From the NCBI GenBank assembly GCA_003599625.1, contig QZIU01000024.1, positions 1 to 32,972 on the forward strand: a DNA stretch of 32,972 nucleotides, read 5' to 3'. The position numbers and the translations under genes are program-made. Source of the DNA: Candidatus Parcubacteria bacterium (GTDB lineage Bacteria > Patescibacteriota > Minisyncoccia > UBA9983). Position 1 is the first letter of the stretch. Each line of letters begins with the position of its first letter. Under the pieces are notes generated by a model, which searched no databases, was not told the DNA's origin, and saw only the letters and a program-made list of their open reading frames with translations. This document shows positions 5,016 through 29,388 of the stretch, one piece after another.

Positions 5016-5047
5016 CGACCTATTTTAGCGATAGAAAAAATAGGTCG
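5016..5047. repeat. Palindromic repeat, copy A
   Basis: An 11-bp stem, CGACCTATTTT with AAAATAGGTCG, around a 10-nt loop. It differs from copy B by three bases, all in the loop region, in either orientation. It lies between the convergent ends of the GT-C gene and the Cas2-like gene. No U-tract follows the stem on either strand, so it is not a typical intrinsic terminator. Confidence 0.8.
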
Positions 5048-5091
5048 CACCATAGAATTATGGATAGATAACGATTTGTGGAGCAGTCAGG

Positions 5092-5676
5092 TTAGAGATT
5101 ATAATAACTTCTCATAAGCTCGTCATTTTCGATTTCTTTGGCCAAAATATGCTTTATGCATTTTTTTACTCGAAAGAATTCGGCCACAAAATCTATTTCA
5201 TTCTTGCATTCAAATGGGCACACAAAAACACTCTTTTGCAGAGGATACAATTCCATTTCATTTAATTTCAGGCTTAGAGCCATTCGAGCTTTCTTGTTTT
5301 TCTCTGGTATGTCGAAAATAATTATTCGCCAATAGCCATCCCATTTTTTGGGTCTGGTTAATTTTATTTTTTGTAAGTCATATGAGAGTATTTTCTTTCT
5401 GCCTAATTCGGTTATCTCGACAATATCTCGGTCATTTTTCTGATAAATTTTGACTAATTTCTTTTTCTTCATATTATCGACAGATCTCAGGAGCTTTCTT
5501 CGTTCAGCCGAATTTGTCGCTCCGAAAAAATCAAGCAATTGCACGGTGTTAGGCAGAGCAAGACCGGCTATCAAAACTCCGCCAATCGCCAGTTTTTTAA
5601 GAATTTCCCTGGCAAGCTCGCCTTTAATATGCCTTTCTCTGATTGATTTTATATTTTTGTCCTCTTCTGATTTCAT
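5092..5676 (-). CDS. PaaX/Cas2-like protein (winged helix plus Cas2-type ferredoxin fold)
   Basis: A 194-residue protein. Residues about 20-100 look like a winged-helix DNA-binding region with SAERRKLLRSVDNMKKKKLV and EITELGRKKIL. Residues about 110-194 resemble the ferredoxin-like C-terminal domain shared by PaaX-type regulators and Cas2: WDGYWRIIIFDIPEKNKKAR, then LNEMELYPLQKSVFVCPFEC. The Asp after the first beta strand (IIFDI) is at the place of the Cas2 metal-binding Asp. No cas1, other cas gene or CRISPR array is present, so a role in CRISPR adaptation is not supported. It could be a repressor acting on the flanking palindromes (one begins 27 nt upstream of its start), a nuclease, or part of a mobile element. 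The odd hydrophobic segment IGGVLIAGLALP lies in the N-terminal part. Function beyond the fold is inference. Confidence 0.7.
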   Translation of the reverse strand: MKSEEDKNIKSIRERHIKGELAREILKKLAIGGVLIAGLALPNTVQLLDFFGATNSAERRKLLRSVDNMKKKKLVKIYQKNDRDIVEITELGRKKILSYDLQKIKLTRPKKWDGYWRIIIFDIPEKNKKARMALSLKLNEMELYPLQKSVFVCPFECKNEIDFVAEFFRVKKCIKHILAKEIENDELMRSYYNL

Positions 5677-5702
5677 ATCCGGAGATTTTTTGTTTTTTAA
5701 TC

Positions 5703-5734
5703 CGACCTATTTTTGCTATCGAAAAAATAGGTCG
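5703..5734. repeat. Palindromic repeat, copy B
   Basis: A 12-bp stem, CGACCTATTTTT with AAAAATAGGTCG, around the loop GCTATCGA. It lies between the Cas2-like gene start (5676) and the methyltransferase stop (5757). Its loop and inner stem are identical to copy C, and the sequence after both stems is CAGGTG. The place just upstream of the Cas2-like start would suit an operator. Confidence 0.85.
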
Positions 5735-5756
5735 CAGGTGATTTAGTTATTGTATA

Positions 5757-6677
5757 TTACTTCTTTATTTTAGGCTGAGAAACAAAAATTGGTCCGGTAA
5801 ACTCAATCTCTGTTTCAACGCCCTTGAAGTCTATGTCCTCAATGTTCTTTCCCCTGGAGAAACTCTCCAAAATTCCTTTGCATTTTTCTACATATGAATC
5901 TCTTTTTTTGAAATACTCTTCTTTTTCCTTTTCACTAAATACACTTAGATCTTCTACTCCCTGCGCTTCGGCCTTTTTAGGATAAGTCCTCCAAAACATT
6001 TCTTTAAGCGTCCATTTCCCAGCAGGAGCATCACCAGCAAATTTTGTATCAAATCCGGCTTCCTCACAAAGTTTCAAATAATCTCCTTTGGTTAAATAGT
6101 TAGTTCCCCTGCCAAGCGCCTCTTTGCTTAAAATTTTATTTATAAATTCCACATGATATTGATCTTTTCCCGATATAACTTGGTTAACGAAGTAACCTTC
6201 CGGCTTCAACGAATCTTTTATATTTCTCAAAATTTTCTTTATGTCTTCAATGGAATTGTAATGAAGAACATTTCTCATGATGGCAAGATCTATTCTTTCA
6301 ATGGGAACTTTATCTACCAGGTTTAATTCAAAAACACCAAAGCCCCTTTTTTCCGCTTCCTCTAGGAATTTTTTATTGACATCTACAATGGAAAAGTCGC
6401 TGTTTTTCCCCTCCCCTTCTAAAATCTTTTTTACAGATTCCGCTAAGCGCCCGCCAGCACCACCAAGCTGTACGGCTTTTATTTTACTTGGCAATTTTTC
6501 AATAATTCCACTTAAGCCAATCTCTATAAAAGCTTTCAAATTTTCTGGCTTTTTTGAATAATCTCCGCCGAATTTTTCCCGTTCGTGTTCTCTGATCTTA
6601 GCCTCTCGCTCTTTTTTTATGGCCTTAAAATCATTACTTGGCACCTCTCCAATTTTCTCCTGTTTAAAAGACTCCAT
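5757..6677 (-). CDS. Class I SAM-dependent methyltransferase
   Basis: A 306-residue protein with a Rossmann-type methyltransferase core in its middle. KAVQLGGAGGRLAES is motif I (SAM-binding glycine loop), FSIVDVNKKFLEEAEKRG gives the acidic residue after the second strand, IDLAIMRNVLHYNSIEDI is motif IV, and LKPEGYFVNQV is motif VI. The N-terminal 65 residues are highly charged and possibly helical. The C-terminal part contains WRTYPKKAEAQG and a charged helix. The substrate cannot be told; no DNA-methyltransferase NPPY-type motif is seen. It is bounded by palindrome copies B and C. The 23-nt gap from its stop to copy B and the nearby Cas2-like gene on the same strand suggest that the two genes travelled or are controlled together. 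Confidence 0.75.
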   Translation of the reverse strand: MESFKQEKIGEVPSNDFKAIKKEREAKIREHEREKFGGDYSKKPENLKAFIEIGLSGIIEKLPSKIKAVQLGGAGGRLAESVKKILEGEGKNSDFSIVDVNKKFLEEAEKRGFGVFELNLVDKVPIERIDLAIMRNVLHYNSIEDIKKILRNIKDSLKPEGYFVNQVISGKDQYHVEFINKILSKEALGRGTNYLTKGDYLKLCEEAGFDTKFAGDAPAGKWTLKEMFWRTYPKKAEAQGVEDLSVFSEKEKEEYFKKRDSYVEKCKGILESFSRGKNIEDIDFKGVETEIEFTGPIFVSQPKIKK

Positions 6678-6734
6678 AAAGCTTTAAATTGTTCTTAATA
6701 CCTTATTTATTTAAAAAATAGCACATTTAATTTT

Positions 6735-6770
6735 TGAGACCTATTTTTGCTATCGAAAAAATAGGTCTCA
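6735..6770. repeat. Palindromic repeat, copy C
   Basis: A 14-bp stem, TGAGACCTATTTTT with AAAAATAGGTCTCA, and the same loop as copy B. Relative to copy B one C-G pair has become A-T with both partners changed, and the stem is two further pairs longer. This points to selection on the paired structure or dyad. It lies between the alaS stop (6832) and the methyltransferase start (6677). No U-tract follows it. Confidence 0.85.
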
Positions 6771-10522: not shown

Positions 10523-13500
10523 TCAGAATTCTTCCCACCCTTCGGAATTTACTTTTTCCACCCTTAAGTTGACATTCAGGTTCTTCGTCTTGGAATTATC
10601 TTCTGCCGATATAGGCACATTATAATTCCCGGCGGAGATCGAACCGGGAACATTTTTTACCCTTACTTTGAAATCAGCCGATTCACCGGACAAATCCAAG
10701 GAAGCGGTGTCGCTCCAAGTTGAGCCGCCATTGGTGGAAAACTGGACTTTGGCGGCGCCCAGGGAAGAAGGAAGGCTGCTCGAAAGATTGACGTTTCCGA
10801 TTGCCGAACCTTCAAGTTTAAGATTGACAGAGGTGGAGTTTGCCGGCTGATTCTCTACGATAGTAGCCAGCATGCTTCCATCCGGATTGGATATGGTGAA
10901 ATCCGAGACGGGAACGCCTACGGCAATTGTTGTTTTTCCTTTAATTTCCGTCCAATTACCTCCATTATAAGCTTTGCATTTCAACTCATATTCCGTGTTT
11001 GAAGCGAGCTTTCCGGTTTTTTGCCCGGTTGAATTGTTGATGCTCACGCCTTTCGCGTAACTTCCAAAATTGCCAAACCAGGTTAGATAACCGTCCATTG
11101 AATCATTTTTGGAATAAAGAACGCAGGAAGATATATTGCTTGTGAGCCATTTAATTAATGAAGTTTTCTTATAGCTGACAGACTGCGGATCGCCCCAAAT
11201 TTCAACAGAGGGAGAGCCTGAAAAATTCGACCCGACCCCGATGGTAACCGAAGCGCTATCGGAAGATCCGGCATCGTTTGAGCAAGTAATCGTGTATGTC
11301 CTGGCGCCTCCGTTGTCGGTAAAATTGACGGTGGTATAGCTTCCGGAAGTTGTGTTGCCAGCAGTTAACCATCCGGTGTCTTTATAACTTCCCGAACCAA
11401 GGCCGCTGTCCGGATGCGAGCAGGAAGTCGCGTTGTCGGAAGCCCAGCTGATGGTTGTGGAATTGCCATCGGTCACCGTCGTCCATCTGGCCGATATGTA
11501 AGCCTTCACGGAACTTCCGCCCCCGCCTCCGCCCCCGGGACCCGATTCGCTTGTAAATCTCGCCGTGACAGTTTTATCATCTCCGGGATAAGGATTTTTT
11601 TCCAAAATACATTCGTTGTCAGAGTTAACCGAACTGCAACCGGACCAACTGGAAAAGTATGATCCGGAATCTGCTTTGGGGACTAATTTAAATTTCCAAT
11701 CCCGCCCCACTCCATCGGTATCGCCGTTGTTCATGACATCAGAGTTTCCCCAGCCTTCCCAACTCTCATTCCAAGCGTATCTTGTCGCGTTTCCGGATCC
11801 AGTTCCCGATGTTTTAAATGTCAAGTTATACCAATCGGGAGTGCTGACACTGGCGCTGCAAGAAGCGTCACTCCCCCCGTTTGAACCATAACAAGACCAA
11901 TTCCAAGGACCATCCCCGCCAATGGAAGAGGGAGAACCGGCAGAACATAACTCACCGCCGGTTGGCGAAGAAGTCCTGGACGACCCGTTGGCCGAGCCGC
12001 AAATTCCGTTCACTGCTGAGTTTCCAGGATCACTAGGATCGCCAGGATCACCATTACAAGGACCGCTGGTGGGCGTGGCACTGACCTCATTTGTAAAAGC
12101 GGAACATTTATTGCCAGGATCAGTATTGTCATTGCATGCCCTTATTTTATATGAATATTTTTTGCCTCCTGAAAGCCCGGTGTCCGAATGGGAGTTGTTG
12201 CTCCGCTCAGGCCTGTTAATATTCATTTCCTTTTTAAAAATGAAACTCCCATCTCTGTAAATATCGTAATATTGCACAACCTTCGAGCCATTATTGGTCA
12301 GGCTGTCATATTTACCGTTACTGTCCTTATTCCACTCCAAATTAACCGCTTGACAAATTCCCGTCGCGGAAAGCCCGGTCGGCATATCCGGCGGAGTCAA
12401 GACATCGGCATCGGCAGTATCGCTTGCCATTCCGGATGAATTTGAACATTGAAGTTCATAGTGTTTAAAACTCTGGAGATTTGATAATTTTTCGGTTCCC
12501 GTCGTCCCGTCGCTTATCTCCGCTTTTGTAAATGTTTTATCTATGCCCCCGGATTGACTCGGATCATTTGACTTTAACGAGCAAGAATCGGCGTTAGACA
12601 CCTTCCATTGCAAGTCAATGCTTTCGCCTTTATTTATTTGCACGGTTCCATCTTGGTAAGATCCCGTTCCTGATTTGCGAATCTTTAAATCGGCTGAAGG
12701 CTTGCCAATGGCAGATGAACAATTCGCGCAAGTTACATTAACCGTGTCGGTTGGCATAAAACAGGAAGCTTGGCCGCCGCGACACTCTACGTAGTAGATC
12801 TTATTGGATTGAATGTTATCTATCGTTTTGGAGCCGTTGACCGCCAGATTATTCCACTGATTGGAAACAGTGTTCTTATTTGAACCGGAGTATTCGTTCA
12901 AGAAACAATAACTAGGTCCGGAAGCGGACCATTTTAGCGTCACACTGTCTCCTTTGTTGACGCTAAGATTTCCGCTATTGGAAACATTCTCTCCCGTCCA
13001 GCTTGTCGGATTGCCGCCTTTGCCAATCTTCAAATCCGCCGCGGGCTTGGAGTTTACGCTTATTTTAACGCTGTCCTTGGCAGTGGTCGTGTTTGAAGAT
13101 ATTTTTTTAGCGCATTGGAGTCCGTATGTTCCGGTTTGAGTCACATTGAAGCTTCTGATTCCGGACTTGTCTATGGACTGAGTTATTCCATCATAATTCC
13201 AGTCGGAAGTCTTGGAACACGAATCAACATCCTCGCTTGTCCAGGTCAAATCCGCCTTGCAGTTATAATCGGCGGTGACAGGTCCGTCGCCGGAGCTGAC
13301 AAGGGTATTGCCGAATGAATCCTTGATGGCGGCTTTCAAGTCAACGGAAGGATCGGGAAGGTTAAGCGGGATCTTCACCCGGATCATTTCTCCTTTTTCC
13401 AACGCTTCGGATGCGTCTTTGTAGTATGTTTTGTCGAGATCTTCATTGAATCCGGCCCGATAATATCCGTCCTTATGAGTGTCATGCCCTGCCTGCCTGA

Positions 13501-15445
13501 ACTCGACGAACAAATATGGATTCTTCCTTAACTTCAACTGGCCGTCTATCGTTTCGTAAAATGAGAGTATGTCATCTGGGTCAATGGCAAAAGAGCGGTC
13601 GACTATTTTAGCCGAAGAAGAATTGTATTCTTGCGTAAAGCTTTTCTTGTAATCCCTCGAACCGATCTTGGCAAAACCGACATATTTTTCCAAACCATCA
13701 GCCTTTATGGACATTTTTATTTTCACTACCATGCTTGAATTACTGCAAGCGCCATCATCCGCCATATAATTGGCATTCACCTTCAACTGACCTCCGCTTT
13801 GGCTGAAATACTTGCTGAAATCGGCCCTTATCGAATATCCGTAATCACCCGAGGAAGGATTATCCTCCTTTTTAACCCTGAATTTATTAATATTGGAACT
13901 ATCCCTGCCGCCCCAATAAGAATACAAAATATCGCTGCTTTTTTTCCAACCGCCGCCGTAATTCTCTCCACTGAACGCCTCAGCTCCGTCGTCATATGTC
14001 TTCGCCTCTCCCGAATTAAGAGTCCCGGCAAAAACCAAAAAAATTGCCAGGAAAAGACCCATGGCGGCTACGGCCTTATTTTTCTTTAAAAAATAGGCAG
14101 CGACCAAAGCTAATATCACTATAAGTCCTGCCATTAGCCAATAGAAATAACTTGGTCTCTCTTCGACCTTCGGCAAGACAACGGATTCTTTGGCCAACTC
14201 CTCCCCTGAAGAAGCCAGGAAGACTTCATAAGAAGCATTGGCGCATTTTTTATCCATTTTAACCTTAACAGTCCCGCTATTCAGTCCGCCGCCTTGAATA
14301 TTATCAACTGGAACTTCCGCCTGACCGCAAATATTTCCCTCCCCATCCCTGACTTCAGCTTGGATTTTTACATCGTTTAATTCGGAAATGTTTTCCCTTG
14401 TACCGCTCCAAAAAAGATCCGCCGAGCCGTAATAATTCACCAACAAAGAAAGCTCTTCCCCTTTTCCGTAGACCGACTTGACCGGGCTGATCAACGAAGA
14501 AGAATCTATCCTGCCTGATGCCCCCTCTATAATCCAGCGAAAAAACATATTGAATGAAGCTGCGAGATTATTTTTAGCATCGGCAAAACTGACAAAAGCC
14601 TGATAAGCCTGGGACTTATCAGCCGCAGGCAATAATAATGATACCTGTTTCGTTTCTCCGGGTTTAAAAATAATATTTTGATCTGTTCTTTGAGTCTGCT
14701 TCTTGCCGCTTGACGGCTTGCCGTAAACATAGAACTCTTTCCATTCGATCTGAGGGTGTGCTTCTATCTGCTCAGAGCCGATATTTTTCACCGAACAACG
14801 GATCTCCGGCCTCTCCCCGGATCTAAAAACAGGCCCCGCGTTATTGCCATATTCTTTGCCGTCTGGACCAAGCATAACGCAATTTTCCCTGTCAAAAGCT
14901 AAAAATCCTTTTTCAACGAGATTTCCTTTGGATTTATTCCCGCCCAGATCATAAATAACATCTTCATACATTCCCAAGACCAAACCATCGGCTCGGATCA
15001 TTCTTAAGTAGAGATAATAGTTATTATAGGGAAGATTTTGCGGAAGAGTAAGCGTGTAAGAGACCCTTTTTTCCTCGAGTGGCTTTAAAGAAAAAAAAGG
15101 CTCCCCCTCCTGGGCGGCAACCGTAAGAGAAGCCAAAGAAAGTTCCGGGGTCCTTGGTTTAATCAAAGGATCGATTTCATTCAAAAGAACAAGATGCGTA
15201 AAAGGCGATGTCTCGATATCCTTGACCGGATTAAAAAGCGTGGCTGAAACTTCCAATCTGTCTTCTTTCGCTTCGATTTTTACATCGCGAATTTCTATCT
15301 GTATTATTTCCTCGTTTATATTTTCTTCATTAGCTTCTTGAGCTTTAAGACTGCCGCCCAAGAACTGCGGTAAAATCGCGGCGAATGCAAAAACAGCAAT
15401 ACAAAAAGCGGCCTTTTTGCTTATGCTGGATTTTAATTTTATCAT
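10523..15445 (-). CDS. Giant surface protein with internal membrane hairpin (1640 aa)
   Basis: No exact family is recognised for the whole chain. Residues 1-36 are a signal peptide. Residues 40-430 form an ectodomain homologous to two units of the 1705-aa protein (shared EKGFLAFDRENC, PEIRCSVKNIG, IEWKEFYVYG). At 432-480 two helices surround a KKNK loop; the second resembles a signal peptide ending near SGEA. A second large exported part follows: a unit with PYLFVEFRQAG, several PKD/Ig-like modules with paired Trp and Cys, an FN3-like domain (about 1015-1125), a Gly/Pro/Ser hinge, one divergent InlB-like repeat (about 1205-1300), a Gly-rich linker, two more Ig-like modules, and a C-terminal domain shared with the 1705-aa protein and ending in VEKVNSEGWEEF. 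No sortase motif is seen. It is probably a cell-surface adhesin or fibre subunit. The stop is TGA. A TATAAT lies 15 nt before the start. Confidence 0.75.
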   Translation of the reverse strand: MIKLKSSISKKAAFCIAVFAFAAILPQFLGGSLKAQEANEENINEEIIQIEIRDVKIEAKEDRLEVSATLFNPVKDIETSPFTHLVLLNEIDPLIKPRTPELSLASLTVAAQEGEPFFSLKPLEEKRVSYTLTLPQNLPYNNYYLYLRMIRADGLVLGMYEDVIYDLGGNKSKGNLVEKGFLAFDRENCVMLGPDGKEYGNNAGPVFRSGERPEIRCSVKNIGSEQIEAHPQIEWKEFYVYGKPSSGKKQTQRTDQNIIFKPGETKQVSLLLPAADKSQAYQAFVSFADAKNNLAASFNMFFRWIIEGASGRIDSSSLISPVKSVYGKGEELSLLVNYYGSADLFWSGTRENISELNDVKIQAEVRDGEGNICGQAEVPVDNIQGGGLNSGTVKVKMDKKCANASYEVFLASSGEELAKESVVLPKVEERPSYFYWLMAGLIVILALVAAYFLKKNKAVAAMGLFLAIFLVFAGTLNSGEAKTYDDGAEAFSGENYGGGWKKSSDILYSYWGGRDSSNINKFRVKKEDNPSSGDYGYSIRADFSKYFSQSGGQLKVNANYMADDGACSNSSMVVKIKMSIKADGLEKYVGFAKIGSRDYKKSFTQEYNSSSAKIVDRSFAIDPDDILSFYETIDGQLKLRKNPYLFVEFRQAGHDTHKDGYYRAGFNEDLDKTYYKDASEALEKGEMIRVKIPLNLPDPSVDLKAAIKDSFGNTLVSSGDGPVTADYNCKADLTWTSEDVDSCSKTSDWNYDGITQSIDKSGIRSFNVTQTGTYGLQCAKKISSNTTTAKDSVKISVNSKPAADLKIGKGGNPTSWTGENVSNSGNLSVNKGDSVTLKWSASGPSYCFLNEYSGSNKNTVSNQWNNLAVNGSKTIDNIQSNKIYYVECRGGQASCFMPTDTVNVTCANCSSAIGKPSADLKIRKSGTGSYQDGTVQINKGESIDLQWKVSNADSCSLKSNDPSQSGGIDKTFTKAEISDGTTGTEKLSNLQSFKHYELQCSNSSGMASDTADADVLTPPDMPTGLSATGICQAVNLEWNKDSNGKYDSLTNNGSKVVQYYDIYRDGSFIFKKEMNINRPERSNNSHSDTGLSGGKKYSYKIRACNDNTDPGNKCSAFTNEVSATPTSGPCNGDPGDPSDPGNSAVNGICGSANGSSRTSSPTGGELCSAGSPSSIGGDGPWNWSCYGSNGGSDASCSASVSTPDWYNLTFKTSGTGSGNATRYAWNESWEGWGNSDVMNNGDTDGVGRDWKFKLVPKADSGSYFSSWSGCSSVNSDNECILEKNPYPGDDKTVTARFTSESGPGGGGGGGSSVKAYISARWTTVTDGNSTTISWASDNATSCSHPDSGLGSGSYKDTGWLTAGNTTSGSYTTVNFTDNGGARTYTITCSNDAGSSDSASVTIGVGSNFSGSPSVEIWGDPQSVSYKKTSLIKWLTSNISSCVLYSKNDSMDGYLTWFGNFGSYAKGVSINNSTGQKTGKLASNTEYELKCKAYNGGNWTEIKGKTTIAVGVPVSDFTISNPDGSMLATIVENQPANSTSVNLKLEGSAIGNVNLSSSLPSSLGAAKVQFSTNGGSTWSDTASLDLSGESADFKVRVKNVPGSISAGNYNVPISAEDNSKTKNLNVNLRVEKVNSEGWEEF

Positions 15446-15460
15446 CTAATTTTTATTTTA

Positions 15461-15466
15461 ATTATA
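15461..15466 (-). promoter_or_regulatory. Candidate -10 box for the 1640-aa surface protein
   Basis: TATAAT on the minus strand, 15 nt before the ATG at 15445. The only -35-like hexamer is TTAAGA (15482-15487) at a short 15-nt spacing, so the call rests mainly on the perfect -10. It is divergent from the rpmE promoter. Confidence 0.35.
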
Positions 15467-15525
15467 ATTAACTAACAGGTGTCTTAACTCTTATTTTACC
15501 ATATTAAAAATTTAGTCAAAGAGGC

Positions 15526-15556
15526 TTGCGAAAAATCCAATCTATGTTAGTATAAC
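15526..15556 (+). promoter_or_regulatory. Candidate promoter of rpmE
   Basis: TTGCGA (15526-15531) and TATAAC (15551-15556) are separated by 19 nt, somewhat long. The -10 ends 8 nt before the rpmE ATG, again suggesting a nearly leaderless message. Confidence 0.45.
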
Positions 15557-15564
15557 AACCACCT

Positions 15565-15777
15565 ATGAAAAAAGACATACATCCCAAATATTACCCCGAA
15601 GCCGTCGTATCTTGCGCTTGCGGCAATAAGATCAAGGCGGGATCTACCAAAGAATCAATGCAGGTGGAAATATGCTCCGCCTGCCATCCCTTCTTTACCG
15701 GAACCAAGAAGATAATCGACACCGCCGGCCGAGTCGAGAAATTCCAGGCCAAAAGAGCCAAAGCGAAAAAGAGCTAG
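15565..15777 (+). CDS. rpmE: Large ribosomal subunit protein bL31 (zinc form)
   Basis: A 70-residue ribosomal protein L31 that binds at the central protuberance and contacts the small subunit. It begins [20 protein letters not shown] and contains [12 protein letters not shown]. The four cysteines (17, 19, 37, 40) are the zinc ligands of the C+ form. The C-terminus is basic ([11 protein letters not shown]), and the length is normal. It lies alone on the plus strand between two giant, paralogous minus-strand surface-protein genes, with its own promoter and a strong terminator downstream, so it is a single-gene unit. Confidence 0.95.
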
Positions 15778-15800
15778 GAATTAGCGCGGCGAGGAATTTA

Positions 15801-15836
15801 AAAATAACCCAAAGATCGCAATCTTTGGGTTATTTT
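15801..15836. terminator. Bidirectional terminator between rpmE and the 1705-aa gene
   Basis: A 16-bp perfect stem, AAAATAACCCAAAGAT with ATCTTTGGGTTATTTT, around the loop CGCA. A-rich and T-rich ends serve as U-tracts on both strands. It lies 23 nt after the rpmE stop and 34 nt after the stop of the convergent gene. Confidence 0.85.
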
Positions 15837-15870
15837 ATTCCCGACTTGGACTTTATGACTTTATGGACTA

Positions 15871-18800
15871 TCAATATTCCCACCAACTCGAGGTCACTTT
15901 TTCCACGTTTAATTCTATGTTTACGGGGTTTGGGTTGACGGAATAACGGTTTGCGCTTTCTATACTGATCGGTATGACATGACTGCCAACCGAAGCGGCG
16001 CTCCCGACATTGTGAATCTTGAACCAAACTTGCATCGGACTGCCTTTTTCCAACTTTTTCGAACCAAGATCTTCAGACCAATTTGCCCCATCGTCGATCG
16101 AATACCAAGCCGTTGTTTTTTTGCTCGGATCAGTTTCCGGATCTGCTCCAATCAGAGAAACGGGCAAGGAGGCTCTTAATCGTATAGAATCGCTCGTGAG
16201 ATCCCCAACAGTGTTATTCAGGGTCAATGTAATAATAGACACGGTGGAATCAGCCGGGAGTTTATTCACCACTTTGGTTGAAATAGAAGGCGTATAGCTT
16301 ACCGAAATATCTCCCGCACCCGCGCTAGCGGAAGAGCTTGAACTGCTGTTTGGATCCAACTTAAATAGATCTTCCGAGGAAGAACTGCTGGAAGAAGAGC
16401 TGCATTCCGGACAACCCCCGCCGCCCGCAGATGACGATGATGAAGAGGAAGACGATGAAGAGGAGGAGGAAGATGATGAAGAGGATGAGGAAGGAGGAGG
16501 ATCACCGGTTGTTGTTTCTGTTTGACAAGCGGAAGAGCAACCATCTCCATCCGTTTTATTGCCGTCGTCACAAGTTTCGTTTCCTTCTGTTTCTATCACT
16601 CCGTTTCCGCAAACCGGGTCTCCGCTGCAACTTCCAACACAACCGCAACTTCCTCCCGTACAGCCACCGGAAGTATAATCGAAATAAGCAGTGACCGTCT
16701 TATTGCTACCCATGGCAATATTGCAATATATCGCGTTGTTGCCGCTGTCTTTTTCCGTACTGTCACAACCCGTCCAGCCATTTATAAAAGTATTATTGCC
16801 TCCGGCCGTTCCGGCTTTAAGCTTCACCTGCGTCCCGTCGCCATAATCAACAGAGCAATTATTATTCGCGCCGCTCGCTTTTTGGCAAATAATATTGCTT
16901 CCAGTCGTCGCGGGAGACTCCTGCCAGACAGTACCGGCGCCCGGACCTGTCACCTTCACCGCAAGATTTCTTGTCTCTGAAACGGGGCATCCTTTAAAGG
17001 TTGCCGCCACATTTTTATTGGAACCCATTGCCAGGTTGCAATCGCTTCCGGCAGAGACGCTCAGGCAATCCGATCCCCAAGACTCCAATGTTCCGGAAGA
17101 AACAGTCAGAGTAACCGTTTCCCCTTCCTTGTAGCCCGACTTGCTGCACGTTGCCCCGTCGGAACAGGAAAAACTGCCGCTTTCTCCGCCGCTTTTGGCG
17201 GTAATCGTTCCGACGCACTGAGTTTGGATGGAGAGGTTGTAATTCGAAGAAGTAACCTGTTCTTCCTTTACAGAAACCGTATCGTAATAACCATAGCAAG
17301 CGTTCCTATTCGAACCACTGGAGTCATAATTTGAACAGTTTATTGTGAATGTTTCATTCCCGGTCATCTCTACAGTCTTGCTGCCGGGATCCGAGCCGCT
17401 ACTTAAACCGTCCGAAACGCCATACGACATGGAACCGCTGCTTAAGACACACCTGTATCGGGATGGCTTATTCGTGTGAGTCCAAGAAAGATTAAGGGTG
17501 TCTCCCTTTTTAGCGATCGCGGCATCGGCCCCGTTGATCTTCAATTCGATCGCGGGCTTCCCTTTCACTCCGACGGTAAGGTCGTCGGAGAGGGAAACAT
17601 CCAATAAATTATTATTGCACTGCAATTTATAATAGTTCTGAGTTATTATCCCTGAGGAAAAAGTCTCCGTGTATGCGCCGTTCGGCTTTGCGGTTTTTGT
17701 TCCCTGCCAATCTTCCAGGGCAGTACAAGTATCTACATCTTTTACGGTCCAAGATAACGCGGGCTTGCAATTGTAATCCATGGTGGAACCGGCCATGTTT
17801 ACCGCTCCATTCAAGAGACTTAATTCCGCGTTCGGGTCCGTCATTCTGAGCGGAACGATCACCCGCAATCTATCCCCCTTTTCAAAAGCCCCGGCATAAG
17901 TTCTTCCTGTCGATGAATCCGGGCTTGTATACTGCACCCCGTCCTGACTCTCGTTATTATCAAAAAATCCTCTGAAATATGGCGTTTCCGTCCCCTCGTG
18001 GTTCTTGCCTATTTGCTGCAAGTAAAAGACAATCTGGGGAGAGTTAATCTTCAACAGGCCATCGGCATCATAAAAAGCATCTTTGATATCCTGATATTTG
18101 ATATAGACATCCTTGCCCCAATTGGAATAAGCCGCGTCGCCGAAACCGCCGCTGATTTTATCCGAGTATGATGACTGCCCCCCAAATCTGATCTTGAGCG
18201 CGGTTTCAGCGCCGGTCACTCCGTCTCTGGCGGTCATCCAAATCCTGAATTTGGCGGATTCGTTCGCGCAACTGAATTCATGACGTCCTTCCAGCCCGAA
18301 ATTGACCCAGCCATCTTTCTTCGAATTAAAATAATCATTAAGATCAACCTGCAAGAAATCTATTTTGGCGCTGTTAAATCCGGCGCTCAAACTGCCTCCT
18401 TCCGAATAAAAAGAATATAATTTCCTGGAAGAGCTGCCGTCATCGAAGGCCTTTCCGCCCCATCCGGCGAGATACGCTTTCCCCGTGTAAGTCTTGGTGT
18501 CTATCGTATCCGCTCCTCCGTCAAGCAAATCTCCATAACTGGTATTCTCGCTCTCTCTGGTTGTGGCGGCAAAAGAATCGGCGCTAAAACCCGCCAAAAA
18601 AAACAAAACGAAGAACATGACCATCAAAGCCTTTTTCTTTTTGGCAAAGAAAATGAGTGACAAAATCGCAGCCAAAACAATTCCCGCCGCCAAAAAATCG
18701 ATCCATTGATTTTGATTTCTTAATTTGGGGAAAGAGCCGGCCTGTTCGCTTAATTTTTCATCTGCCGCAAAAACGGCAACCTCGTAATTCGGATCGTCGC

Positions 18801-20988
18801 ACTTTTCTTTCAGAAGAATATCTATTTGGGTTGTCCGCAAAAGCCCATCCGATATATCTTCGACCGTTTCGGTCTTTTGTCCACATTCCGAACCGTCGGT
18901 ATTTGTAATGGCGGCGCGTATATTGATATTACCTAGATTTTTTACCTTGGAATCCAACCCCCGCCAATACAAATCCATGGATCCAAAGTAATCCACCTTC
19001 AAGGAGATCGCTTCTCCGGATTTATATGAATCCTTTAGCGGGCTGGCTAAAGAAACTCGCTCAACTCTTGCTGACGAGCCTCCGATGGTCCAGCGAAAAG
19101 GAGCATAAAAAGAAACCTTTTCCGAGTTTTGATCAACAAATCCCAACAAAGCTTGGTAAACTTGGGGTTTGGCCGCCCGCGGAAGAATGATCTCCACATT
19201 CCTTGATTCTCCGACATTGAAACTGATCGGATCATAATTTTGGGTTGCCACTTGGCCATCGTCAGGCCGTCCATACACATAGAATTCTTTCCATAACACT
19301 TCCGGCGAAGCGGTGATGCCCTCTTTTCCGATATTCGTAACCTTGCAACCGATCTTTGGTTCCCTTTCAAGGTCAAAAACGGGACCGCTGTTGCCGGAGA
19401 GCCTTTTTCCTTCTTGATTGATCATGTAGCAACTTTCTTGATCAAAGACAAGAAACGGTTGTTCGTAATACTCGCCTGCCAGAGGGTTTGCAAAGCCAAG
19501 TTCGGAAATCTCCCGGCTGAATTTTCCCAAAATCGATCCATCGGATCTTATCAATCCCAACCGTAAAACATAAAGGATTTTAGGCAAATTGGAAGATAAA
19601 TTCAGTTCATAATGAATCTTTCTTTCCTCCAAAGGCTTCAGTGTCTCATAAACCTTGCCCTCATCGGCCAAAACGATCCAGGCCGGACTCAGCGTATCTG
19701 ATTGTTTTATTATCGGACTTGGAATTTCTTGATTTTCCAGAATCAACAGACGCGTGAACGGCGATGTTTCTATATTTTTGCTTGGATTAAAAATCGTGGC
19801 GGAGATTTCCAGCCGGTCTTCTTTTGTTTCTATCTTTATATCCCGGATCTCGACATTATCGATATTTTGGGCCGACATTTCTTCTTGGCCGGCAACCGAA
19901 TTCGCGCCAAACGCGAACACGGACAAAACAAAGATCATCGCAAAGAATTTTCTGCTTATCATGTTCTTTTTTCTAATTATATAAAAAGCGACGATAAATA
20001 TGCCGGCTGTTTCCAGCGCGATTATCAGATAACCGAACCTGTCTTTGAAAGACCCCGGTTCTTCGGACGAACTGCCGCCTTCTCCGCTCAAACTTCCCGC
20101 CTCTTCGGGAGCGGCCGCTTGGCCGCTATCGTCGATTACCCAATTATACTCCATATTGAACGACTTTAATGAACCGTCCTTATCCACAAAGGAAAGCATG
20201 GCCTGATAATTCTGCGATTTATCGCTTGGCATATCCACTCCGACAAACTTCATTTCTCCGGGGGCGAAAGAAACGGCCTGGTCGTAAGTTTTAGATATTT
20301 TTTTCCCTGACAAAGAGCCGTCTGAACGAGAAAACTCTTGCCATTCAATTTTAGGATAAACGTTTAGGGCTTCCATGCCCGCGTTCTTAACCAGGCAGGA
20401 TATTTCCGGCATCTCTGACGAAGAAAAGATTGCCGCTTCGTTTAGGCCGTATTTCCTTCCATCCATCCCGACCATGAAGCAATGCGACCTGTAAAAATCC
20501 AAGAAACCCTTTTCATAAAGTTCTCCTTTTCTAACATTCCAACCGACATTGTAAAATGTTTGTTCATATTCAGCTGCCAATTCCCCGCCGATTTGACGCG
20601 CTTCGAATCTGAACATGTAATTTCCTTGGGGCAAAGCAAGGCTTATCGGCAGCAAAAAAGAAAGTTTTTTTTCTTCTCCGGCTTTCAGCGAGAAATGATC
20701 CTCGCTTTTAATTTCCGCGACGGAAAAATCGGTTAAATCTTCTCCGGGTTGTTTTATGGCATCTTTCGCGAAAGGCTCAATCGGACGCAAAGAGGCAAAA
20801 TAGCTAAGGCCCGGCGTTTCTTTGGAACCGGAATTTAAGATCGCCGCTTCTATTTTAATTTGCTCGGGCAAAACGCTGAATTCCAAATTATTGACGGTCA
20901 AATCCGCGGCGGCAAAGGAAAGGACGGGCAAGAAGACCGGAAGCAAAAGCAAGACGGAGAAAATTTTGACGATTTTATTTTTGCTCAT
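15871..20988 (-). CDS. Giant surface polyprotein-like protein with two internal membrane hairpins (1705 aa)
   Basis: Residues 1-26 are a signal peptide. Three exported parts follow. Unit 1 (about 27-315) and unit 2 (about 366-755) are homologous to each other and to the first ectodomain of the 1640-aa protein (EKGFLDFYRSHC, YEQPFLVFDQESC, EWQEF, WKEFYVYGRP). They are separated by membrane hairpins at about 318-362 and 760-808, each a helix, a basic loop (IRKKNMISRK; AKKKKALM) and a second helix like a signal peptide ending in small residues. Unit 3 has a domain shared with the 1640-aa protein (YNCKPALSWTVKDVDTC), PKD/Ig-like modules, two divergent InlB-like repeats (about 1249-1436), a DUF4215-like Cys-rich module (CGNGVIETEG, ETCDDGN), a Ser/Gly-rich linker (about 1490-1555) and the shared C-terminal domain ending VEKVTSSWWEY. 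It starts 2 nt after the preceding gene's stop, so it is the last gene of a three-gene operon. Stop TGA. Confidence 0.75.
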   Translation of the reverse strand: MSKNKIVKIFSVLLLLPVFLPVLSFAAADLTVNNLEFSVLPEQIKIEAAILNSGSKETPGLSYFASLRPIEPFAKDAIKQPGEDLTDFSVAEIKSEDHFSLKAGEEKKLSFLLPISLALPQGNYMFRFEARQIGGELAAEYEQTFYNVGWNVRKGELYEKGFLDFYRSHCFMVGMDGRKYGLNEAAIFSSSEMPEISCLVKNAGMEALNVYPKIEWQEFSRSDGSLSGKKISKTYDQAVSFAPGEMKFVGVDMPSDKSQNYQAMLSFVDKDGSLKSFNMEYNWVIDDSGQAAAPEEAGSLSGEGGSSSEEPGSFKDRFGYLIIALETAGIFIVAFYIIRKKNMISRKFFAMIFVLSVFAFGANSVAGQEEMSAQNIDNVEIRDIKIETKEDRLEISATIFNPSKNIETSPFTRLLILENQEIPSPIIKQSDTLSPAWIVLADEGKVYETLKPLEERKIHYELNLSSNLPKILYVLRLGLIRSDGSILGKFSREISELGFANPLAGEYYEQPFLVFDQESCYMINQEGKRLSGNSGPVFDLEREPKIGCKVTNIGKEGITASPEVLWKEFYVYGRPDDGQVATQNYDPISFNVGESRNVEIILPRAAKPQVYQALLGFVDQNSEKVSFYAPFRWTIGGSSARVERVSLASPLKDSYKSGEAISLKVDYFGSMDLYWRGLDSKVKNLGNINIRAAITNTDGSECGQKTETVEDISDGLLRTTQIDILLKEKCDDPNYEVAVFAADEKLSEQAGSFPKLRNQNQWIDFLAAGIVLAAILSLIFFAKKKKALMVMFFVLFFLAGFSADSFAATTRESENTSYGDLLDGGADTIDTKTYTGKAYLAGWGGKAFDDGSSSRKLYSFYSEGGSLSAGFNSAKIDFLQVDLNDYFNSKKDGWVNFGLEGRHEFSCANESAKFRIWMTARDGVTGAETALKIRFGGQSSYSDKISGGFGDAAYSNWGKDVYIKYQDIKDAFYDADGLLKINSPQIVFYLQQIGKNHEGTETPYFRGFFDNNESQDGVQYTSPDSSTGRTYAGAFEKGDRLRVIVPLRMTDPNAELSLLNGAVNMAGSTMDYNCKPALSWTVKDVDTCTALEDWQGTKTAKPNGAYTETFSSGIITQNYYKLQCNNNLLDVSLSDDLTVGVKGKPAIELKINGADAAIAKKGDTLNLSWTHTNKPSRYRCVLSSGSMSYGVSDGLSSGSDPGSKTVEMTGNETFTINCSNYDSSGSNRNACYGYYDTVSVKEEQVTSSNYNLSIQTQCVGTITAKSGGESGSFSCSDGATCSKSGYKEGETVTLTVSSGTLESWGSDCLSVSAGSDCNLAMGSNKNVAATFKGCPVSETRNLAVKVTGPGAGTVWQESPATTGSNIICQKASGANNNCSVDYGDGTQVKLKAGTAGGNNTFINGWTGCDSTEKDSGNNAIYCNIAMGSNKTVTAYFDYTSGGCTGGSCGCVGSCSGDPVCGNGVIETEGNETCDDGNKTDGDGCSSACQTETTTGDPPPSSSSSSSSSSSSSSSSSSSSSAGGGGCPECSSSSSSSSSEDLFKLDPNSSSSSSASAGAGDISVSYTPSISTKVVNKLPADSTVSIITLTLNNTVGDLTSDSIRLRASLPVSLIGADPETDPSKKTTAWYSIDDGANWSEDLGSKKLEKGSPMQVWFKIHNVGSAASVGSHVIPISIESANRYSVNPNPVNIELNVEKVTSSWWEY

Positions 20989-20990
20989 TG

Positions 20991-23015
20991 TTATTGCTTT
21001 TTAAAATTAGCCGTAATATTTTTACCCGATGATATGCCGTTTATGGAGCAAGGGCCGGTGCCGGAACAGGCGCCCCCCCACCCGGCAAAGACCGAACCTG
21101 TGGATGCTGTCGCGCTCACGATAAAATTACTCCCCTTCAGATAGGAATTTGAGCAGGCCGGAACAGTTCCTGAAGCAAGGCTGCCGAAATAACACGATAT
21201 ATCTTTGATCAAAGGATCGGAACTGACCACCCTTACCGTCCCATGACCATCGCCCTTTTTCTCAACTTTGACGCTGAACAAATTATCTTCGTTTATAAAT
21301 AAAGCGAATCTGCTGGTGGTGGCCACGCTGCCGGACTGGCCGGTTACGGTAATCGGATAAATACCGGCAGGAGCGTTCGGAGAAACGGATATATTTACGG
21401 AACTTGAGCATGGCGCGACACAATTATTATTGCTAACCGTCGCTGTTGCCCCCGTTGGGAGGCCGGAAACAGAAAGCGATACCGGCTTTGGCTCTCCCGA
21501 GAGCGGCGCCTGGGGAACAGGATTAAAAACTGTCGCGTTTGAGGAAATTTTCTTTGTGGTGTAAAGATTCGGCAGAATGTCAGGCATCTTGAAAAGATAA
21601 GGCAAAATATCAAAAACAGCCGTGATAGACCTTGGAGCCGACATTTGAACAAGGCAGACATTATCTTTGCTTGCCGCGCAATTTCCCTGCCAACCGGCGA
21701 AATAAGAATTGATGAATGGATTTGCCAGTATCGGTATGGAGAATCCGTCAGGATAATATTCCGAACAGTCGCTTCCGCATTCCACCCCCGGGCTGACCAC
21801 GACGCCACTACCGGGTCCCGCTTTTCCCGCAGAAAACAGAACTTCAAAAATAGCCACCGTAGCCTTTGGAACCGATCCGTTCATCGTTATGACGCAAGGA
21901 CCGGATCCCCTGAAGTCGCAAGCGCCACGCCATCCCGCCAACCTGTACCCTTGAGATGGAGCGGCAATTAGAGTAACCGTGGAATTCACAGGGAAGCCCG
22001 CTTCAATGTTTTTACAAGTTGTCCCGCAAGAAATGCCCGCCGGATTGCTTGTGACGACCCCCGCCCCGGGAGAAGATTTATCCAAAATCAAGATCATGTT
22101 GAATTGTGCCGTTACCGACTTTGCTGCGTTCATGGTCACGACACAAGAGCCAGTCCCCGAGCAAGCCGCGCCACTCCATCCGGCAAAGACATAACCCGGC
22201 GCGGCGGTAGCGGTGAGACTGATTGAAGAATTCAAACTAAAAGCGGCGCTGGCGGTCCCGCAAGTTGTCCCGCAAGAGATGCCGGCGGGACTGCTGACAA
22301 CCGCCCCCGCGGCTACAATATTTTTGTTAACATAAAGAACCGGATTAAATCTTGCCATTACTGATTTAGCCGCGTTCATCACAAAAGAACACGAGCCTAA
22401 TCCGGTACAGGCCCCCTCCCATCCGGCAAAAAGATACCCTGAAGATGAAGAAGGGGAAAGGCTAACGCTTGTGTTCAAATTATAAGATTCATTACAATCT
22501 CCGCCGCAATTTACACCAGGGCCGGTTACAGAACCGGATCCTGTTTTACTGACAGAAAGAGGACAAATATCGGGACTATAGCTTCCACAGGCAGTACTGG
22601 TGCAAACGAAAGGCGGGTCATAGACTTGTGTGCAAACGAAAGGCGGGTCATAGACTTGTGTGCAAACGAAAGGCGGGTCATAGGCTCGCGTGCAAATAAA
22701 CCCAAACCTGGGATGGAAGAAACCTCCGACGCAATATGGACCAGGATCGTAACCTCCGACGCAATATGGACCAGGATCGTAACCTCCGACGCAATATGGA
22801 CCAGGATCGTAACCGCTTGCGCAGTAGGTCGAAAGACAGGATCCGGCGGTACAGCCGGGAGCAACAGCCAAAGCTCTCTTTAAAAAAGACACCTTGTGTC
22901 CGAAAATATTATAACTCTCGCTTGCCTTATTCGCGGAAAAATAAAGAAAACCAATTAGAAGAGCAAAAAATGCTAATGAAAAAATTAAATATTTTTTCCC
23001 TGCGAAATAAATCAT
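20991..23015 (-). CDS. Cysteine-rich surface protein with five InlB-like repeats and decapeptide repeats (674 aa)
   Basis: The N-terminal helix at about 7-28 is a signal peptide or anchor. Residues about 67-142 hold two blocks of ten-residue repeats, GYDPGPYCVG three times and VYDPPFVCTQ about three times, each with one Cys. Then come four divergent InlB-like repeats (about 153-470), marked by ISCGTTC, FAGWSGA, a C-x(4,5)-C pair and MNAAKSVTAQF. An Ig-like segment with LSGEPKPVSLSVSGLP follows, and a fifth repeat ends the chain at ITANFKKQ. The paired Cys in each repeat would suit disulfides outside the cell. The gene is the middle of a tight operon: 1 nt between it and the 152-aa gene, 2 nt to the 1705-aa gene. 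Ligand and role are unknown; a surface adhesin or stalk is plausible. Confidence 0.75.
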   Translation of the reverse strand: MIYFAGKKYLIFSLAFFALLIGFLYFSANKASESYNIFGHKVSFLKRALAVAPGCTAGSCLSTYCASGYDPGPYCVGGYDPGPYCVGGYDPGPYCVGGFFHPRFGFICTRAYDPPFVCTQVYDPPFVCTQVYDPPFVCTSTACGSYSPDICPLSVSKTGSGSVTGPGVNCGGDCNESYNLNTSVSLSPSSSSGYLFAGWEGACTGLGSCSFVMNAAKSVMARFNPVLYVNKNIVAAGAVVSSPAGISCGTTCGTASAAFSLNSSISLTATAAPGYVFAGWSGAACSGTGSCVVTMNAAKSVTAQFNMILILDKSSPGAGVVTSNPAGISCGTTCKNIEAGFPVNSTVTLIAAPSQGYRLAGWRGACDFRGSGPCVITMNGSVPKATVAIFEVLFSAGKAGPGSGVVVSPGVECGSDCSEYYPDGFSIPILANPFINSYFAGWQGNCAASKDNVCLVQMSAPRSITAVFDILPYLFKMPDILPNLYTTKKISSNATVFNPVPQAPLSGEPKPVSLSVSGLPTGATATVSNNNCVAPCSSSVNISVSPNAPAGIYPITVTGQSGSVATTSRFALFINEDNLFSVKVEKKGDGHGTVRVVSSDPLIKDISCYFGSLASGTVPACSNSYLKGSNFIVSATASTGSVFAGWGGACSGTGPCSINGISSGKNITANFKKQ
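22601..22690 (-). repeat. 30-bp tandem repeat encoding VYDPPFVCTQ
   Basis: Three consecutive 30-bp units. The first two are identical over 30 bp and the third is identical over its first 23, diverging at its end. A fourth, degenerate unit follows. Being a multiple of three, each unit adds ten residues in frame. There are no spacers, so this is not a CRISPR array. Confidence 0.9.
22723..22812 (-). repeat. 30-bp tandem repeat encoding GYDPGPYCVG
   Basis: Three identical, uninterrupted 30-bp units, different in sequence from the neighbouring 22601-22690 block but encoding a peptide with the same YDP...C spacing idea. Identity at synonymous sites points to recent expansion by slippage or recombination. 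Confidence 0.9.
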
Positions 23016-23016
23016 T

Positions 23017-23475
23017 TTAAATTTTCGTAAATTTAATTTCGGTTATTTTATCCGAATCCCTAACTTGAATTTCACAGGTATCTCCCTCTTCCGTTGTTGT
23101 CGTTATGCTATCGCAGCCGTTAATCCAGCCGTCAAAAATGGATGCTTCTATGGGACTGGCTATTATCTTAATTATTGAATCTACATCTACGGGACTGCTG
23201 CATCCATTGTCATCAACAAGAAGACAAGCCGGACTTTCGCTTTTTTGCAAAATTACCGAGCCAAAACCGGTGCTATCCGAAGATCTTTTAGTTGTTAGGG
23301 TGACTTTTATCTTTGTTTCAGGCTTATTGTCGACATCATTTAATGCAACTTCATCGTTATAATTAACACTATCGTTGCTTTGAAAGAAGTTGCCGACTGC
23401 GTAATAACTAAACAGTCCCGCGATAATAACTAAGACAAAAACAAACAAGGAAATTGTCAGAAATTTATTTTTCAT
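23017..23475 (-). CDS. Small anchored protein with one InlB-like repeat (152 aa)
   Basis: Residues 1-28 form a basic N-terminus and one hydrophobic helix (FLTISLFVFVLVIIAGLFSYYAV), a signal anchor or uncleaved signal. After an acidic linker, residues about 55-152 form one degenerate copy of the Cys-containing repeat: PACLLVDDNGCSSP, IFDGWINGCDSI, DTCEIQV, ending in ITEIKFTKI. It is the first gene of the operon with the 674-aa and 1705-aa proteins. It may be a minimal subunit or a membrane partner of the larger proteins; that is inference. Confidence 0.7.
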   Translation of the reverse strand: MKNKFLTISLFVFVLVIIAGLFSYYAVGNFFQSNDSVNYNDEVALNDVDNKPETKIKVTLTTKRSSDSTGFGSVILQKSESPACLLVDDNGCSSPVDVDSIIKIIASPIEASIFDGWINGCDSITTTTEEGDTCEIQVRDSDKITEIKFTKI

Positions 23476-23532
23476 AAAATTAAATTTTGCTTAAATATTT
23501 TTATAGCGAATGATTCCAAAATCGCTTTCATA

Positions 23533-23558
23533 ATTTTATCACACTTCGCGAAAGTCAA
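23533..23558 (-). promoter_or_regulatory. Candidate promoter of the three-gene surface operon
   Basis: TTGACT (23553-23558) is followed by TAAAAT (23533-23538) with an extended -10 TG just before it. The 14-nt spacing is short, which lowers confidence. The predicted leader is about 50 nt before the start at 23475. Confidence 0.35.
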
Positions 23559-23570
23559 CCATAAACCGTC

Positions 23571-23579
23571 TGTGGATAA
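23571..23579. promoter_or_regulatory. DnaA-box-like 9-mer
   Basis: TGTGGATAA, the exact reverse complement of the DnaA consensus TTATCCACA, in the divergent intergenic region between the surface operon and prfA. It lies inside the longer string CTGTGGATAACTT, which also occurs at the 30587-30654 hairpin. Binding is not shown. Confidence 0.35.
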
Positions 23580-23601
23580 CTTAAAAACTCGAGGACTGCA
23601 T

Positions 23602-23630
23602 TTGCCCGTCTTGCTTTTTTATGCTATGGT
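23602..23630 (+). promoter_or_regulatory. Promoter of prfA
   Basis: TTGCCC (23602-23607) and TATGGT (23625-23630) with a 17-nt spacer. The -10 overlaps an upstream in-frame ATG (23621), which argues for the later start at 23648. Confidence 0.5.
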
Positions 23631-23647
23631 TTAATCGTCAAAAAATT

Positions 23648-24385
23648 ATGAACAATCTGAATACCAACAAAATAATATTGGAAATTCGCGCCGGAGTGGG
23701 TGGAAACGAAGCGGCTATATTCGCGGCAGACTTGGCTAACATGTATTCAAAATTCGCCGCCAAAGAAGGTTGGGGGGTCATCATAATGGACGAATCCAAA
23801 AGCGATCTGGGAGGATATAAGGAAGTGGTGATGGAAATTTCCGGCCTTGGGGTCTACGATAAACTCAAGCAGGAAAGCGGCGTCCACAGAGTCCAGCGAG
23901 TTCCGGCTACGGAAAAGTCGGGGCGGGTTCATACCTCTACCGCCTCGGTCGCCGTTCTTCCGATGAAAGAAACTGAGACGGTGAACATCAAGCCTCAGGA
24001 TTTGGAAGTCGCGTTTACGCGTTCCGGGGGAGCGGGCGGACAGAATGTAAACAAAGTTGAAACAGCCGTCAGGATCACTCATAAGCCCACCGGTATCGTC
24101 GTCAAATGCACCAGCGAAAGATCCCAGCAGAGAAACAGAGAAAAAGCTCTGGCTATTTTGGCCGCCAAACTGGAAGAAATGCAAAGCGCCCAAGGGCAAA
24201 ACCAGTTGGCCGCGGAAAGAAAGCAGCAGATCGGAACACAAGACAGGTCGGAAAAAATAAGGACATACAATTTCCTTCAGGACAGGATAACCGACCATCG
24301 CGTCAAAAAATCATTCCACGACATAGAAAGAATAATGGAAGGGAATCTCGACAAAATAGTCAAAGCTTTTCAAGAAAATAAATAA
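23648..24385 (+). CDS. prfA: Peptide chain release factor 1, short form
   Basis: RF1 reads UAA and UAG in the ribosomal A site and triggers peptide release. [22 protein letters not shown] opens domain 2, [16 protein letters not shown] contains the PAT tripeptide that distinguishes RF1 from RF2, and [21 protein letters not shown] contains the catalytic GGQ. The protein has about 245 residues against about 360 in E. coli; the N-terminal domain 1 is absent, while domains 2-4 are complete. This is a reduced form, not a fragment, since the start is intact and a promoter precedes it. Start 23648 ([13 protein letters not shown]) is preferred; ATG 23621 overlaps the -10 box. It is a single plus-strand gene between surface-protein genes and ends in a shared terminator. 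Confidence 0.93.
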
Positions 24386-24407
24386 TCCCGCTTTAAGCGG
24401 GATTATT
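24381..24407. terminator. Bidirectional terminator after prfA
   Basis: An 11-bp stem, AATAATCCCGC with GCGGGATTATT, and loop TTTAA. The prfA TAA lies within the left arm. It is followed by TTATT on the plus strand and lies 23 nt past the stop of the convergent 544-aa gene. Confidence 0.8.
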
Positions 24408-24430
24408 TATTACTATCGCCATCTTAAATC

Positions 24431-26065: not shown

Positions 26066-26136
26066 AAAATTATTTTTTCAAATTCTCTTATAATTGGAAT
26101 TCATTGCAATATAACTCTTTGTCCAAAAGTTTGGCT

Positions 26137-27120: not shown

Positions 27121-27126
27121 AAACTT

Positions 27127-27131
27127 CTCCT
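27127..27131 (-). promoter_or_regulatory. Shine-Dalgarno site of the 327-aa LamG gene
   Basis: AGGAG with a 6-nt spacer to the ATG at 27120. It stands out because most starts in this window have no such site. Confidence 0.7.
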
Positions 27132-27168
27132 AAGGTATAACTGTCGATAGATCAAAAAGACATCCACA

Positions 27169-27200
27169 CGAAAAAGCCCCCGGCAAAGGGGGCTTTTTCG
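27169..27200 (-). terminator. Terminator of the 684-aa surface protein gene
   Basis: A 13-bp perfect stem, CGAAAAAGCCCCC with GGGGGCTTTTTCG, loop of 6 nt and T-run on the minus strand, 15 nt after the stop at 27216. Confidence 0.85.
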
Positions 27201-27215
27201 TTCTGTCTTACTTCT

Positions 27216-29270: not shown

Positions 29271-29320
29271 AAGTTTTTGATTATCTTCTTATAATAAAAT
29301 CGACTATCCGATTTATCTTC

Positions 29321-29329
29321 ATTATACCA
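29321..29329 (-). promoter_or_regulatory. Extended -10 promoter of the 684-aa gene
   Basis: The minus strand reads TGGTATAAT, a perfect extended -10 box, 50 nt before the start at 29270, giving a leader of roughly 43 nt. No good -35 at 17 nt was seen. Confidence 0.5.
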
Positions 29330-29351
29330 TAACTTCAGGAAAGCAATAATG

Positions 29352-29379: not shown

Positions 29380-29388
29380 GTCGAATCT

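Follow-up and report, generated by a model that had tools for sequence, protein, structure and literature searches.

Long hairpin-forming palindromes and a family of genes for winged-helix/Cas2-fold proteins occur together in Patescibacteria-type genomes, and we put at roughly two in three the probability that they form a mobile palindrome system akin to REP sequences and their RAYT transposases, run by a protein that is not an HUH tyrosine transposase. The palindromes and the gene family are associated with each other, dispersed, and polymorphic for insertion. Among bacteria, no pairing of dispersed palindromes with a dedicated gene is better described than that of REP repeats and their transposases, and the way in which REPs spread has yet to be settled. 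If our reading is true, palindrome-based mobility has evolved more than once, here with an unrelated protein of a type not known for such a mobile partnership. Moreover, the Cas2 fold would gain a transposition-like role, which may bear on the origin of Cas2, and a function would be found for a highly expanded orphan gene family of reduced genomes, the gene being present in about one third of the sampled genomes of a phylum with tiny genomes.

The window, the whole stretch of 32,972 nucleotides that was analysed, holds three copies (A, B and C) of one palindrome at the positions that a preliminary description had given for them. The unit reads C, methyltransferase gene, B, Cas2-fold gene, A, with alaS and a glycosyltransferase gene on either side (Table 1), and the inner sequence GACCTATTTT...AAAATAGGTC is common to all three copies. 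As described earlier, B and C differ by a change from C-G to A-T made on both sides, just outside GACC...GGTC, and no T-tract follows any copy; nor does a terminator-like site fall on one. The preliminary description noticed the palindrome nowhere else in the window, and A, B and C are indeed the only copies there; the genome carries three more. Together these six make up the family ACCTATTTTTGC...GCAAAAATAGGT. The exact pattern GACCTATTTT-N4-14-AAAATAGGTC is found at 4 places in the 906 kb genome and the reversed control pattern at 0, and on shuffled sequence the palindrome model returned 0 matches of at least 15 bits in 3.2 Mb; the window palindromes are not due to chance. Past the shared inner part, the copies in this genome extend by a further 14, 8, 7, 4, 2 and 2 bp, the sequence being different each time, and the extensions of 14, 8 and 7 bp are likewise not chance. 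Such copy-specific outer arms suggest either that insertion favours short inverted repeats or that the flank is copied in inverted form during insertion.

Table 1. The palindromes of the window with the two genes that they bracket, and the solo copies in the same genome.
Feature	Position	Strand	Description
Palindrome copy A	5016-5047	no strand	CGACCTATTTTAGCGATAGAAAAAATAGGTCG; between the glycosyltransferase gene and the Cas2-fold gene, whose 3' ends converge (read from ORFs)
Cas2-fold gene	5092-5676	minus	194-aa winged-helix and Cas2-fold (PaaX_M) protein; marker gene of the family
Palindrome copy B	5703-5734	no strand	CGACCTATTTTTGCTATCGAAAAAATAGGTCG; 26 bp upstream of the Cas2-fold start, just past the methyltransferase stop
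Methyltransferase gene	5757-6677	minus	class I SAM-dependent (Methyltransf_12/_23); bracketed by copies B and C
Palindrome copy C	6735-6770	no strand	TGAGACCTATTTTTGCTATCGAAAAAATAGGTCTCA; flanked by the alaS stop and the methyltransferase start
Solo	C17:126		window's genome
Solo	C34:7765		window's genome; upstream of a sua5-like gene (name from translated flank)
Solo	C1:21582		window's genome; upstream of a lon-like gene (name from translated flank)

In the 194-residue protein of the window, a winged helix at the N-terminus is followed by a Cas2-like ferredoxin domain at the C-terminus. The earlier label of an orphan Cas2-like gene was therefore right but imprecise, since Pfam assigns the protein to PaaX_M (PF20803, E=2.7e-17) as well as to CRISPR_Cas2 (E=6e-5); PF20803 matches 23/23 aligned family members and the CRISPR_Cas2 profile 18/23. 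Conserved residues of the family are W112, D113, W116, R117, F121, D122, Q147, S149 and P154, with W112, W116, D122 and S149 essentially invariant (n=120 family members). A low-confidence model (three sequences, pLDDT 53) has a secondary structure that agrees with a winged helix plus PaaX_M, and a comparison of the family profile with solved structures gave no convincing match. Three syntenic orthologue pairs have dN/dS values of 0.04-0.13, and the protein is therefore maintained by purifying selection. The family is present in 57/93 related genomes at 1-13 copies each, the 13 copies being those of a 0.5 Mb genome, and in 79/240 genomes across the phylum. Paralogues within a genome reach 75% identity among the sampled copies, with no pair above this, and a search of viral contigs found one distant homologue only, without palindromes. 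The closest named relative of the family is PaaX, a transcriptional repressor; we know of no activity for the family itself.

To see how the palindromes are distributed around this gene, 122 family loci were scanned, a palindrome being near when within 200 bp of the gene and far when more than 1 kb away. Palindromes of any core numbered 84 near (47.6 kb) against 95 far (816 kb). Where the central six bases are CKRYMG, that is CTATAG, CGATCG and mixtures of these, the counts over the same two spaces were 57 and 7, and the density of such palindromes within 200 bp of family genes is some 140 times that elsewhere. The core rule was then applied to a held-out set of 28 new loci, drawn almost entirely from other classes of the phylum and with one viral contig among them; 14 palindromes lay near (11 kb) and 0 far (69 kb). 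Upstream and downstream arms at one locus agree with a median of 0.89, compared with 0.43 between loci, and arm identity is at least 70% in 85% of the 20 loci where both palindromes pass the threshold. The arms differ between loci even where the genes are ~75% identical, and in gene pairs of that identity from different contexts the similarity of the DNA stops at the coding sequence. The type of core changes 12 times over the protein tree, compared with 13.1 times when shuffled, and so does not track it, and between genomes the similarity of the arms is hardly related to that of the proteins (rho 0.10); therefore direct recognition by the protein is not proved. The preliminary description had counted homologous genes lacking nearby palindromes against a pairing of the two, and half of this objection stands, 82 of 147 family genes being without a palindrome of at least 18 bits nearby. 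Palindrome presence at family genes carries no phylogenetic signal. Palindromes are often seen at contig ends (e.g. L091, L136, L151, L220 and L222), where they have probably broken the assemblies, and palindrome copy numbers are therefore lower bounds. At L151, the middle of the downstream palindrome, which lies at a contig end, is occupied by another palindrome unrelated to it (CCTCACTTGCTCGCAAGTGAGG), as though the core had served as the site of insertion.

The arms are 16-28 bp long and hairpin-forming around the conserved core C-K-R-Y-M-G. An alignment of 38 palindromes has 608 pair cells, of which 97% are paired, and shows 299 double changes; shuffled controls give 49% and 100. The stem covariation score is 1.155 vs 0.22 when shuffled. 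With positions counted from the centre, pairing among 56 non-redundant palindromes is at least 93% over positions 8-17, weaker over 5-7 and down to background near 22; the 5' arm is G-poor, and the C found at position 3 in every case is imposed by the selection rule. Between copies of the same palindrome family in one genome, changes to both arms outnumber changes to one arm (27 vs 14), an excess that fits the copying of one arm from the other and does not prove it.

We searched 86 genomes, 53 with the gene and 33 without, using a covariance model of the palindromes. Matches occurred in 34/53 genomes with the gene and 5/33 without it (p=8e-6), the latter having one or two matches each, and at least 6 strand-hits, equal to three or more palindromes, were reached in 16 genomes with the gene and 0 without (p=3e-4). 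The worry raised beforehand, that the palindrome might be common where the gene is missing, is thus not borne out. G067 is the genome with the highest number of matches (29 strand-hits); some matches of the model are ordinary terminators, as at L206 (AAAAAACCCGCGATCGCGGGTTTTTT). We found 73 distinct solos, that is copies away from the gene, and for 37 of the 64 testable ones a matching palindrome flanks a family gene in the same genome; the control, with flanking palindromes of other genomes, gives 4%. Near-identical intergenic solos number ~8-9 in G020 and five or more in each of G032 and G085, with further sets in G075 and G067; in G067 three different genes (L089, L091 and L101) each have cognate solos elsewhere. 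Taken together with the lack of gene paralogues above 75% identity, these near-identical solos indicate that palindromes spread without the gene. At least three palindrome families occur together in G020, including CACTCACYYAACTCACGATCGTGAGTTRRGTGAGTG (L213, L215, L218, L221 and L265), and two or three palindromes sometimes share one intergenic space there, like BIME clusters.

An empty-site comparison in sister genomes had been proposed at the outset, and it yielded both filled and empty sites. Between ftsX and tRNA-Gln, the arrangement palindrome-gene-palindrome is found in G067 and G042, and neither gene nor palindrome in five family members. The ftsA|ftsZ and murJ|lepA sites are filled in G013 and empty in its sister G096 (~85% identical), where the junctions measure 9-23 bp; the filled sites also hold a small extra ORF, i.e. 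material beyond the palindromes. One solo palindrome of G013 is likewise missing in G096. In the space between murA and the neighbouring gene, G096 has a short spacer, and G013 carries the series palindrome, gene X, palindrome, Cas2-fold gene, palindrome. This unit shares the architecture of the window, with its two genes and three palindromes. At L081 the palindromes bracket a YraN-like gene, and at L125 a second ORF separates a third palindrome from the others. These units show that palindromes can bracket passenger genes, like the methyltransferase gene in the window, itself a probable passenger with no counterpart at the related locus L003. There, in the closest relative, the glycosyltransferase neighbour is kept, the methyltransferase is missing and only decayed palindromes with GCGACCTATTTT...CTATCG are seen. 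No base-exact junction or target duplication was seen between filled sites and empty-site sisters, which are ~76-87% identical. A base-exact empty site for the window's family was sought in its genus, where the only match, in which cysS and sua5 abut without a palindrome, is 72% identical and too diverged for a junction; G032 is the only sampled genome of its own family. At L097 and L103, small ORFs, one of them zinc-ribbon-like, lie upstream of the Cas2-fold gene with a strong ribosome-binding site before them, inside the insertion relative to G096 and outside the palindromes.

Given the kinship with PaaX, the protein could instead be an autoregulator that binds the palindromes and represses its own gene together with a small regulon, the solos being the operators of that regulon. 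The repressors of the PaaX family do have palindromic sites (TTHA0973: AACnAACGTTnGTT, PMC6651687), the upstream palindromes often stand 10-60 bp before the start beside a TATAAT-like box, and the gene is under purifying selection. However, palindromes are equally common downstream and upstream of the gene. The 57 classifiable solos comprise 32 tandem, 13 convergent and 12 divergent cases, and the convergent share of 22.8% exceeds the 12.9% expected from intergenic bases (p=0.04); operators should be depleted in convergent space, and the over-representation of solos there therefore argues that they are not operators. Moreover, arms of 16-28 bp that covary throughout, with copy-specific outer parts, go far beyond what a winged-helix dimer usually reads, and gene and palindrome are missing together in sister genomes. 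We regard autoregulation as unlikely, and the earlier suggestion that the repeats are operators of the winged-helix protein is unsupported as the main explanation. The strong stem covariation might also reflect selection on RNA pairing, if the hairpins acted in the transcript, through its stability or as substrates that a Cas2-like RNase processes; ribonucleases are found among Cas2/VapD relatives. Yet G-T is not in excess of A-C among the mismatches in the stems (10 vs 8) and G-U pairs are rare in the 38 aligned palindromes, which is suggestive of DNA over RNA in a search that itself favoured Watson-Crick stems. The solos occur in every orientation, some of them between convergent genes, and no Rfam family reached its curated score at the palindromes; a role in RNA seems to us very improbable.

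Two further accounts concern how the solos arose. They could be scars comparable to solo LTRs, left where a whole unit had moved and recombination between its palindromes later deleted the gene. The flanking palindromes are near-identical, such a deletion would leave exactly one, and whole units are polymorphic; nevertheless, near-identical sets of solos in G020, G032 and G085 stand against the lack of near-identical gene copies (75% at most), and make this origin quite unlikely. Alternatively, a classical Y1 (RAYT/IS200) transposase encoded elsewhere would have moved the palindromes, which would then be ordinary REP-like repeats with the Cas2-fold gene a mere neighbour. Y1 transposase domains do occur in 53/86 genomes, but we found no Y1 match in G067, the genome richest in strand-hits, nor in G080, G060, G047 and G012, all with gene-flanking palindromes, these being genomes with missing parts. 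The GTAG and CGTC tags of known REPs were present in 2 and 2 of 282 flanks, GTAG falling below the ~7 expected by chance, and the palindromes track the Cas2-fold gene. A Y1 transposase was accordingly rejected as the mover, and we give such an explanation very little credence. Cas1 was set aside as a mover because it is found in just 5/86 genomes, while 53/86 carry the Cas2-fold gene. Within the family, an HUH motif occurs in only 4/122 proteins and Pfam gives no Y1_Tnp. With Cas1, Y1, REP tags and HUH all wanting, the Cas2-fold protein is the best candidate partner of the palindromes, and we infer for it a biochemical role in their movement. Proteins with Y1 transposase domains, of ~220-250 aa, are multi-copy (up to 14 per genome) in G003, G007, G009, G050 and other genomes of this class.

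Our literature search returned no paper describing the Cas2-fold gene/palindrome system, none naming both PaaX and Cas2, and none on PaaX-like proteins in Patescibacteria. In REPtrons, a gene is bordered by two palindromes and cognate palindromes are dispersed intergenically in the same genome; several protein-palindrome pairs coexist and the gene is under purifying selection (PMC2817692, PMC8266576). Flanking cognate palindromes, intergenic dispersal, coexisting pairs and purifying selection are all found here. In contrast to REPtrons, the protein combines a winged helix with a Cas2 fold and lacks the HUH motif, the palindromes have a symmetric core (CKRYMG) and no GTAG tag, and their copies number ~2-15 rather than the hundreds of REPs. 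TnpA_REP is mostly found in one copy and shows no sign of being mobile, whereas the Cas2-fold gene is multi-copy, insertion-polymorphic, sometimes accompanied by a second bracketed gene, and appears to be mobile itself, which is not reported for TnpA_REP. Since two defining features, the HUH/Y1 enzyme and the GTAG tag, are lacking, we do not file the system as a REPtron.

The PaaX repressors (PF20803) share with the family a winged helix followed by a Cas2-like PaaX_M domain, and also palindromic DNA sites. The family protein is shorter, at ~185-195 aa, and its palindromes are long hairpins with copy-specific arms, placed on both sides of the gene and dispersed regardless of promoters; a confinement of sites to promoters, as in PaaX, is not seen, given that 13/57 solos and also window copy A are convergent. 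The Cas1-Cas2 pair of CRISPR systems resembles it in the Cas2-like ferredoxin domain, a conserved Asp (D122) and a Q-x-S-V motif, and differs in that here there is no Cas1 partner, a winged helix is added and the palindromes are not a CRISPR array. In IS200/IS605 elements, structured palindromes at the ends are recognised by their fold, and integron attC sites are variable palindromes that bracket gene cassettes. Structured palindromes bracket the unit here too, but it encodes no Y1 or tyrosine recombinase, and the palindrome is conserved in its middle instead of at its foot.

The idea first put forward from the window, that the palindromes are the ends of a small mobile unit with the logic of REP sequences and RAYTs, is well supported by matched flanks across the phylum, cognate dispersed solos and empty sites in sisters. 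In the mechanism that we envisage, the protein (winged helix plus Cas2/PaaX_M ferredoxin fold) is encoded between two long hairpin-forming copies of the palindrome, and its dimer would recognise the palindrome through a half-site plus the core, probably as an extruded or single-stranded hairpin. The Cas2-fold protein may itself move or cut hairpins, with a cut or nick near the core; palindromes would then be inserted in trans, and the protein's own bracketed gene in cis. More tentatively, and with the odds rather against it, the system could be a new class of mobile element, in which a winged-helix/Cas2-fold protein without Cas1, HUH or DDE processes hairpins at their central core, mobilises palindromes in trans and cassettes in cis, and rebuilds each palindrome by copying one arm from the other.

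Elsewhere in the window, positions 10523-30483 of the minus strand are occupied by a run of large proteins, probably secreted, with serine tracts and repeated Cys/Gly-rich modules. Lastly, the genome that contains the window is one of the five of 86 with Cas1. A fragment of Cas1 lies there at a contig end beside a gene for a true Cas2 (E=3e-14; G000:C17:20072-20786, on the contig of locus L039), apparently as part of a CRISPR locus.
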